Origin: Brevibacterium luteolum
GTDB taxonomy: Bacteria; Actinomycetota; Actinomycetes; Actinomycetales; Brevibacteriaceae
Length of the DNA: 64,000 bases
NCBI RefSeq assembly: GCF_013004595.1
Contig: NZ_JABEMC010000001.1
Coordinates: forward strand, 1 to 64,000
Direction: 5' to 3'
Made by a program: the position numbers and the translations under genes. Positions 43,899 through 45,491 of the stretch are shown here, piece after piece (position 1 is the first letter of the stretch; each line of letters begins with the position of its first letter). Under the pieces are notes generated by a model, which was not told the DNA's origin, made no database searches, and saw only the letters and a list, made by a program, of their open reading frames with translations.

Positions 43899-43971
43899 GC
43901 GCCACTAGCTCAACGGATAGAGCATCTGACTACGGATCAGAAGGTTGGGGGTTCGAATCCCTCGTGGCGCG
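43899..43971 (+). tRNA. tRNA-Arg(ACG), prophage integration site
   Basis: A standard 73-nt cloverleaf: acceptor GCGCCAC pairs with GTGGCGC (43964-43970), the anticodon loop ctacgga contains ACG (read as inosine-CG), and the T arm contains GGTTCGAATCC. CCA is not encoded. Phage-type genes start immediately at its 3' side, so its 3' half is probably the attachment core, restored by phage DNA on integration. Confidence 0.95.
43930..43971. other. Probable prophage attachment site (left end)
   Basis: The 42 bp from the tRNA-Arg anticodon loop to its 3' end are shared by the tRNA and the phage repressor frame. tRNA-integrating phages usually cross over within this half. The exact core cannot be set without the other prophage end, where a second copy of part of this sequence is expected. 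Confidence 0.6.
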
Positions 43972-44259
43972 CGAATCTCCACTAGAGCCGCCGTCCGGTC
44001 CATCCGGGCGGCGGTTTTTCAATTCACCGGTTTCGATCCACTCCAGCGGAACCTGCGTCCGCATCGCCCAGAGGATGAGCTCGGCGCGCCGCGGACTGGT
44101 CCGGTCGTTGAGCCAGTTCGAGATCGTGTTGCGCGACACGCCGAGGTGCTGCGCCATCTCCTGAGATGAAAGACCTGCAGCCGACAGCGACTTCGCCAGC
44201 CGGTCGCCGCGCGTGAACTGCAGCCGTGCCATCAGGGTCGATTCGGGGTTCTCAGACAT
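43930..44259 (-). CDS. Phage immunity repressor whose tail is encoded antisense to tRNA-Arg
   Basis: A 109-residue DNA-binding protein. The HTH lies at residues 28-52 (AGLSSQEMAQHLGVSRNTIS), followed by LILWAMRTQVPLEWIETGE, a pattern common in actinophage repressors. Residues 97-109 (RATRDSNPQPSDP) and the TAG stop are read from the strand opposite the tRNA-Arg 3' half, with the stop in its anticodon loop. ATG 44259 is six bases after a CATAAT -10 box, so the mRNA is probably leaderless; the longer frame to 44328 was rejected. The C-terminus would change at excision if the crossover lies 3' of the stop; see findings. Confidence 0.85.
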   Translation of the reverse strand: MSENPESTLMARLQFTRGDRLAKSLSAAGLSSQEMAQHLGVSRNTISNWLNDRTSPRRAELILWAMRTQVPLEWIETGELKNRRPDGPDGGSSGDSRATRDSNPQPSDP

Positions 44260-44277
44260 ACCTCTATTATGCCTAAG

Positions 44278-44366
44278 CTTGTGCAGATTCGCAAGGTAAT
44301 GCAAAAACTCTGCGACTGGTAGTTGCACAAGATTGGGAAGTGGTGCAACCTTGTGACATGCACAAG
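44278..44366. promoter_or_regulatory. Operator-like half sites in the phage switch region
   Basis: The sequence CTTGTGCA or its complement TGCACAAG occurs at 44278-44285, 44324-44331 and 44359-44366. A related CTTGTG at 44350-44355 pairs with the last copy to form CTTGTGACATGCACAAG (44350-44366), which covers the start codon of the rightward gene. Repeated symmetric sites between divergent repressor and Cro-like genes are what a phage switch needs. Confidence 0.6.
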
Positions 44367-44576
44367 TCGCAAGAACTCATCCGCAGCGCCGACGCAGCCG
44401 CAATGCTCGCGATCGACCGCTCCACCCTCTCCCGATGGGTAAAAGCCGGAAAGCTCACCCCAGCCGTCGAAGGCTCCGGCATCCGCGGCGAACGGTTCTT
44501 TGCCCGCGAAGACGTCGAAGCGCTCGCCGCGAAGCCCGCAGCGCTCGCCCAAGAGTCGAAGCCGGTGGCGTCATGA
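44358..44576 (+). CDS. Cro- or excisionase-like HTH protein
   Basis: A 72-residue protein with a MerR-type excisionase HTH: LIRSADAAAMLAIDRSTLSR followed by WVKAGKLTPAV and RFFAREDVEALA. It is divergent from the repressor, the position of cro or xis in lambda-like switches, and may do either job. ATG 44358 was chosen; an in-frame GTG at 44340 is the alternative, and neither has a clear ribosome site. The next gene overlaps its stop. Confidence 0.75.
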   Translation: MHKSQELIRSADAAAMLAIDRSTLSRWVKAGKLTPAVEGSGIRGERFFAREDVEALAAKPAALAQESKPVAS

Positions 44577-44688: not shown

Positions 44689-45273
44689 TCAAGATTCGGG
44701 GAGCAGCTGCTCCATCAGAACGCTTTCGCCGATCGCTACCGTAATAACGTTGCCGTCCACCCCGGTGACAACAGCGGTGTACGGCTCGCCTCTGTCGAGT
44801 CGCGGGGAAAGGCGTCGTGCGAAGCCACGGTTCACGTAACCCCAAGCTGCGGTGCCGACGGGCCCGCAGAGCGCGATCGCCTTGGGGTCGTGCTCGTTGT
44901 TGGGCTCTCTCTTGAGCATGATGATGCTGCCAATCTCGATCTCAGCGGATTGAAGAGCGGCACTGTAGTGCCTGGTTCCTCGGGCACGGAGGTAGAAGAC
45001 GCCGGCGCGAGCGAGGGCGAGGTTGCCCGGCGCGGCTTGCAAACCACTGCTCTTGCTGACGAACCGCAGCTCGTCGCGCCAGATCAACTCGAAGGTCGGA
45101 CGTCCATTGACGATGACGAGCTCACTGTCCGACTCGGCCTTGCTCAGCCAACGCCGCTCGGGCGCCGGTCTGCGCTCCACTTCCTGCGCCTCTCGATCGT
45201 GTGGTGCCTGCGTCTCCGCTTGGCTGCCGCTGAACAGCGTGCGGAAGAACTCTTGAGCTGCTCGAAAAACCAT
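44689..45273 (-). CDS. HIRAN-domain protein in the immunity region
   Basis: A 194-residue protein on the opposite strand to the lytic genes. Residues 90-185 resemble a HIRAN domain, a DNA-end-recognising fold known from HLTF/Rad5 helicases: FYLRARGTRHYSAALQ, then IIMLKREPNNEHDPKAIALC and WGYVNRGFARRL. No helicase domain is attached. ATG 45273 has AAGGAG 7 bp upstream. Leftward genes near a repressor are often expressed in the lysogen, so this could be a superinfection-exclusion or host-fitness gene. That role is inference. Confidence 0.7.
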   Translation of the reverse strand: MVFRAAQEFFRTLFSGSQAETQAPHDREAQEVERRPAPERRWLSKAESDSELVIVNGRPTFELIWRDELRFVSKSSGLQAAPGNLALARAGVFYLRARGTRHYSAALQSAEIEIGSIIMLKREPNNEHDPKAIALCGPVGTAAWGYVNRGFARRLSPRLDRGEPYTAVVTGVDGNVITVAIGESVLMEQLLPES

Positions 45274-45491
45274 AGACCGTCTCCTTCGGCGAGTAGGCGT
45301 CGTCACAGGCGTCAGCTTACCGACGGAGACTGCACGGACATCGCTCCCGTCGAGTCAGCGGTTGAGCGTCCGTGCGGGTCGCCGGAGTCGACACGGGGAT
45401 GCGACTCGGGCGGCTGAAGGGTGGGGCCGGGCGCGGGTGTAAGGGGAAACCCGCGTCCGGTCTCACCACAGGAAGTAGGCAAAAAGGAAAC

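Follow-up and report, generated by a model that had tools for sequence, protein, structure and literature searches.

A Brevibacterium prophage whose repressor gene runs into tRNA-Arg very probably carries an integration-dependent immunity switch

It is known that the repressor gene of mycobacteriophage BPs (gp33) gives products of 136 and 103 amino acids, the longer of which is degraded and has no activity, and that the integrase of this phage is gp32 (PMC4557955). BPs integrates at a tRNA-Arg gene, where the host base adjoining the attachment core converts a Cys codon into a stop codon (PMC9262239). The features by which such integration-dependent immunity is recognised (Broussard et al. 2013) were taken for this study from PMC9934374, PMC9262239, and PMC4557955. 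The literature found on integration-dependent immunity and the prophages concerned deals with Mycobacterium, Gordonia, Bifidobacterium, and Arthrobacter, and no report of integration-dependent immunity in Brevibacterium was found in the literature searched. Here I describe a prophage of Brevibacterium luteolum (genome G000). The window, that is, the whole stretch of DNA analysed, comprises 64,000 nucleotides of contig C1; the contig extends past the window, and the sequence at the attachment site recurs on it at 84404. The coordinates of the features are collected in Table 1.

Table 1. Features of the prophage locus in B. luteolum (window coordinates unless a contig or locus is named) and contig overlaps in a relative
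Feature	Position	Strand	Basis or remark
tRNA-Arg(ACG), restored at attL	43899..43972	+	ARAGORN; host DNA up to the shared core, which forms the 3′ part from 43933
attL common core, 40 bp, CGGATCAGAAGGTTGGGGGTTCGAATCCCTCGTGGCGCGC	43933..43972	+	Identical attR copy at G000:C1 84407-84446, outside the window
Repressor, prophage form 109 aa (130 aa in attP form), HTH_3/Phage_CI_repr	43930..44259	-	ATG 44257-44259; Pfam; PHROG 2328
TAG stop codon from host DNA, ending the integrated repressor	43930..43932	-	tRNA positions 32-34 (C32-U33-A34); attL/attR sequence and attP translation
Candidate repressor promoter TTGCGA-17-CATAAT, sigma-70-like	44266..44294	-	Consensus scan only; ends 7 bases before the ATG
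Candidate operator CTTGTGACATGCACAAG, CTTGTG-ACATG-CACAAG, perfect 6-bp inverted repeat	44350..44366	.	
Divergent excisionase/MerR-like HTH_17 protein, 72 aa, in xis/cro position	44358..44576	+	Pfam HTH_17 1.4e-9
Anti-repressor Ant (Bro-N and ANT domains), 268 aa	45541..46347	+	PHROG 130 6.9e-57; Pfam Bro-N 4.2e-21
Tyrosine integrase	C1 83218-84003	leftward	Pfam Phage_integrase 7.4e-24; adjoins attR
98-aa ORF between repressor and integrase	C1 84048-84344 (L005 6048-6344)	-	Just inside attR
G026 overlaps of 127 bp	L213 1-127, L214 7565-7691, L216 1-127		attL, attR, and attP contigs in one assembly

The prophage is 40.4 kb long, with attL and attR as its ends. An exact comparison of both ends revealed that they share an identical core of 40 bp, which is the 3′ half of tRNA-Arg(ACG). 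The tRNA gene is complete at attL, while the attR copy lacks the 5′ half and no tRNA was called there. In other words, attB and a host tRNA gene overlap, and integration leaves the tRNA complete. An empty site was found in the genome of a sister species (G010), in which a PEPCK gene (96.9% identical), the tRNA gene (74 of 74 residues), and a symporter gene (98.7%) lie next to one another. Immediately after the tRNA comes CAACTGAAACCGCCGCCCGG, which is also the sequence to the right of attR. I conclude that chance does not explain an identical 40-bp repeat that coincides with both boundaries of a 40-kb phage region when a sister species has the site empty. A tRNA piece on contig C15 with 83% identity was considered as another att copy and ruled out, as it is an ordinary tRNA-Arg(CCG). 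The host gene beyond attR resembles, judged from its sequence alone, a sodium/acetate symporter gene.

The repressor (Pfam Phage_CI_repr 2.7e-10 and HTH_3 9e-10; PHROG 2328, transcriptional repressor, 1e-28) is read leftward into this tRNA. Just as the original prediction had it, the last 13 sense codons and the stop codon are antisense to the 3′ half of tRNA-Arg, exactly so over positions 43930-43971, and the stop codon lies within the anticodon loop. The core begins one base past the stop codon, which thus lies outside the core. Immediately to the left of the core, the host DNA reads CTA (antisense TAG) while the phage DNA reads CTT (antisense AAG, Lys). A host origin of the TAG is supported by G010, whose empty site contains the intact tRNA with this triplet. 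The attP sequence of this prophage was rebuilt from attL and attR, not read directly. In the rebuilt sequence, which includes CAACCTTCGGATCAG, the leftward frame that ends with SDP-TAG in the integrated form continues as SDP-AAG-GTT, and the repressor is 130 instead of 109 amino acids long. The 21 added residues constitute the tail KVAVLSAIRHLSPALPHPSAA. Thus, the 40-bp core, and with it attP, lies inside the coding frame of the 130-aa repressor, and the prophage form is shorter owing to a stop codon from host DNA at attL. The predicted lengthening of the frame in attP, with an ssrA-like end, was therefore found, although the tail terminates in HPSAA with two terminal alanines, unlike the canonical LAA. 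Since up to about 6% of ORFs in such DNA end in -AA by chance, the SAA end is weak evidence on its own. It had also been supposed that the change of the tail would depend on where the crossover takes place. Here, the deciding base is outside the core, so that a crossover anywhere in the core gives one and the same result.

At the left edge of the core in the rebuilt attP (L002 1497-1518), there is an inverted repeat, CAACCTTC-GGATCA-GAAGGTTG, of which 7 of 8 bases are retained in the related prophage of G045 described below. This repeat may be the pair of sites that the integrase binds in the core, in which case strands would be exchanged within the anticodon loop and the AAG/TAG codon would fall in the one half-site in which attP and attB differ. 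No direct or inverted repeats of 11 bases or more were found in the 630 bp around the rebuilt attP, where degenerate arm sites could still exist. Arm-type repeats near attP are likewise absent in known integration-dependent immunity systems (PMC9262239, PMC9635641).

A tyrosine integrase gene lies at the far prophage end beside the second core copy, where it had been expected. Its catalytic residues R129, H210, R213, H236, and Y245 are invariant in an alignment of ten members, with K153 present in at least 90%; in a second alignment, all of these residues including K153 are invariant. The integrase also ends in an ssrA-like sequence (ESQMRSAIDSLAA, AIDSLAA). An -AA end was found in 39 of 80 integrase relatives. 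When the ORFs of the same loci were counted, 19 of 45 integrases ended in -AA, versus 28 of 485 other ORFs (odds ratio 11.9); this background of 5.8% is an upper estimate, with repressors and spurious frames left in. The excess is to be taken as support and not as a probability, related sequences being non-independent. At these loci, a search of upstream ORFs for antisense-tRNA motifs was noisy, and only the integrase ends were used.

Between the repressor and the integrase is an ORF of 98 codons with no family match in Pfam or PHROGs. Its start codon overlaps the stop codon of the long repressor (ATGA), and an alternative start codon is present seven codons on, behind a good ribosome site. 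In the attP form, the repressor, the 98-aa ORF, and the integrase are all leftward in that order, and their cotranscription is predicted. Two more leftward ORFs, on the minus strand beyond the integrase (L005 4641-5165, corresponding to C1 82641-83165, and L005 3802-4659), have no Pfam match. The former starts with MRQTITALTVAALIALTGCSS, which resembles a lipoprotein signal, and it may encode a surface protein expressed from the prophage.

It is very likely that the immunity of this Brevibacterium prophage depends on integration, through a switch like that of BPs and Brujita. On the phage chromosome, the repressor gene containing attP would produce the 130-aa repressor ending in SAA. This form would be removed by ClpXP, the host protease that reads ssrA-type tags, so that the infection would stay lytic, and the downstream integrase ending in SLAA would likewise be short-lived. 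Once enough integrase survives, attP would be recombined with the 3′ half of tRNA-Arg(ACG), and the host base adjoining the core would turn the Lys codon AAG into TAG. The resulting tagless 109-aa repressor would shut the early promoter and provide immunity. Integration would also part the integrase gene from the repressor promoter. Within this scheme, the att sites, both reading frames, the position and end of the integrase, the empty site, and the homology are shown by the sequence, and I infer the proteolysis of the long repressor and of the integrase, as well as the difference in activity by which only the short form represses; the candidate operator and promoter are presumed to be in use, and integrase expression is presumed to be lost in the lysogen. 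The -LAA and -AA ends of ssrA tagging are established as a degradation signal. The tmRNA tag of the host itself is AKSNDRTEFALAA, ending in ALAA. Thus, the -LAA and -AA ends are probably the local form of this signal.

The defining sequence features in the list of PMC9934374 are present in the prophage. The proposal of integration-dependent immunity in the original prediction is supported, and none of the three findings named in advance as speaking against it was made: the integrase is not elsewhere, the core does not cover the stop codon, and the attP form does not lack a tail. The prophage is a well-supported new case of an already known type of switch. This would extend to Brevibacterium prophages a simple switch in which integration itself decides lysogeny.

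Does the arrangement recur in Brevibacterium? A repressor running into tRNA-Arg(ACG) was found in three of 57 Brevibacterium genomes (G000, G026, and G045). Weak repressor matches elsewhere in the genus (E about 1e-4) were rejected, being attributed to general HTH proteins or to frames that happen to run over tRNAs. An integrase-like match in G036 (44% identical) was set aside; it ends in LRLN and has no tRNA beside it. The G026 repressor is 70% identical to that of G000. In G026, attP was read, not rebuilt, and the repressor is lengthened from 106 to 136 amino acids with a PLVA end. The G026 integrase is of a different type, without a match to the G000 integrase at E 1e-20, and ends in DRLAA. 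It was revealed that the contigs with attL (C11), attR (C18), and attP (C32) meet at the core with exact overlaps of 127 bp. Exact overlaps of this kind are expected where the assembly of short reads meets a genuine branch. Thus, excised or circular phage DNA, arising by spontaneous excision, was probably present in the sequenced sample of G026. A prophage in tandem copies would produce such overlaps as well.

The G026 attP also bears on whether the studied prophage might be decayed or domesticated, with the arrangement as a relic that has no present function. The G000 assembly displays only the integrated form, as such a relic would. I regard this explanation as improbable, because attP itself occurs in the assembly of the relative, the att cores of the G000 prophage are identical, the catalytic residues of its integrase are present, and its repressor, xis, and Ant frames are open. 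The frames for terminase, portal, capsid, tape measure, minor tail, and endolysin proteins are open as well and match phage families.

The third genome, G045 (Brevibacterium sp. CCUG 69071), has a repressor with 40% identity and an integrase with 62% identity to those of G000, the latter ending in SLAA. Its rebuilt tail, KVLIFPSKPNLLEAG, ends in NLLEAG without a terminal AA, while the arrangement is otherwise as in G000 (L060, L062, and L073). Thus, a terminal -AA is not universal among close relatives. The EAG end possibly represents another tail type, decay, or a sequencing error. With closely related repressors joined to unrelated integrases and tails at one tRNA-Arg in G000 and G026, and a tail lacking AA in G045, the Brevibacterium switch might be modular, a notion I put forward tentatively and hold to be rather doubtful. 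If it is true, the separation of the tail would be selected as such, and the degron would be replaceable by another inactivating tail. In any event, SAA, LVA, and EAG tails and two integrase types at one attachment site provide natural variation for studying the requirements for the tail.

How closely does the locus resemble BPs? As in BPs, attP lies within the repressor gene, the host site is a tRNA-Arg gene, and a stop codon comes from the host base beside the core; the short repressor is specified only when integrated, the repressor and integrase have ssrA-like ends, and a small DNA-binding gene is divergent (PMC4557955, PMC9262239). The differences are in detail. The base that changes occupies the first position of a Lys codon here (AAG to TAG) and the third position of a Cys codon in BPs, the tail has 21 residues here and 33 in BPs, and the core is 40 bp here and 35 bp in BPs. 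Moreover, the SAA end, the additional ORF between the repressor and the integrase, and the Brevibacterium host distinguish the present case, in which the switch is predicted from the sequence, from BPs. BPs also informs the question of what the tail does. It might act otherwise than by degradation, for example through oligomerisation or by contacting RNA polymerase and thereby activating the repressor promoter. A stabilised long form of BPs did modestly raise Prep activity (PMC4557955), and the G045 tail ends in EAG, both of which fit such an effect. However, DNA is bound alike by both BPs forms (PMC4557955), and most members carry a terminal -AA, -LVA, or -LAA on the repressor and the integrase. 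A tail effect of this other sort is thus unlikely, and degradation remains the preferred explanation.

The kinship with the published switch could be confirmed, as both the repressor and the integrase are homologous to those of integration-dependent immunity phages. By tblastn, repressor matches were found in 213 phage records, all from Mycobacterium, Gordonia, Arthrobacter, and Curtobacterium, and integrase matches in 519 phage records, with Brujita and cluster P among the best. The integrase is 43-46% identical to those of the cluster I1/P mycobacteriophages Brujita, Malithi, and Purky. The immunity repressor of cluster P is homologous mainly in the HTH part (53.6% identity over 68 residues for Malithi), while the repressor of Brujita itself is less similar, with an aligned identity of 25%. 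The order of rep-int, xis, and Ant, the last being downstream of xis, is common to Brujita, Malithi, BigNuz, Purky, and the G000 prophage. The attB of cluster P is predicted at tRNA-Thr (PMC9635641), in contrast to tRNA-Arg here. In the Gordonia phages Wizard, Hibiscus, GRU3, and SallySpecial, as well as GMA5, the repressor match covers up to 95% of the length, and the repressor includes a peptide antisense to a tRNA and has an -AA end, as in this prophage. The attB of Wizard is likewise a tRNA-Arg gene, and GMA5 also has an extra ORF between the integrase and the repressor (PMC5559632). The integrases of these Gordonia phages are only about 29-32% identical, and the host genus is another. In the Bifidobacterium prophages Bb423phi2 and 689b-1, the rebuilt attP lengthens the repressor by 18 residues with an ssrA-like tag (PMC6109161). 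These prophages are small, lie at tRNA-Met, and are related to small Gordonia phages, whereas the present one is a 40-kb prophage at tRNA-Arg.

Since the core must hold the 3′ half of the tRNA and integration gives a new end to any gene that stops there, the overlap could be incidental, as in a lambda-like phage: a normal repressor gene would simply have attP at its 3′ end, the two forms would work equally well, and the tail would have no role. The rebuilt G045 tail without a terminal AA agrees with this. Nevertheless, the arrangement recurs in Brevibacterium with unrelated tails and two integrase types, and the published relatives keep it, most of them with -AA or -VA ends (11 of 14 records examined for the phage-encoded repressor). 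In addition, the integrase and the repressor of the studied prophage both end in -AA, and the long form of BPs is demonstrably degraded and inactive (PMC4557955). An incidental overlap is therefore highly improbable. For annotation, this means that where the frame of a repressor enters a tRNA gene on the opposite strand, its end can be genuine and functional instead of a mistake.

In IMG/VR, prophage contigs L028, L030, L031, L032, L036, L037, and L040 have repressor-like frames ending in antisense-tRNA peptides (RDSNPQPSDP, EGFEPPTF, and similar), most of them by tRNA-Arg(ACG) and in at least two reading frames. The repressor-into-tRNA arrangement may be common and unannotated.

On the other side of the repressor, the predicted gene order of tRNA, leftward repressor, and divergent cro/xis-like gene was found, the last being the excisionase-like HTH_17 gene, whose product also matches PHROG 66, excisionase and transcriptional regulator (9e-8). 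The position of the candidate repressor promoter suggests that the repressor transcript is possibly leaderless. The candidate operator is the sole exact copy in the window, with half-sites also at 44278-44283 and 44326-44331; further sites with the exact pattern were not found in the window, and near matches were at chance level. A block of 20 bp at the operator, AACCTTGTGACATGCACAAG, is unchanged in G026, while the remaining intergenic region has diverged. Since part of this block is coding (MHK), regulation is not the sole reason for its conservation. A leftward ORF of 205 codons with a HIRAN domain (5.9e-11; window 44689-45306, minus strand) separates the excisionase-like gene from Ant. Lying opposite to the lytic genes, it is a candidate for a gene expressed in the lysogen.
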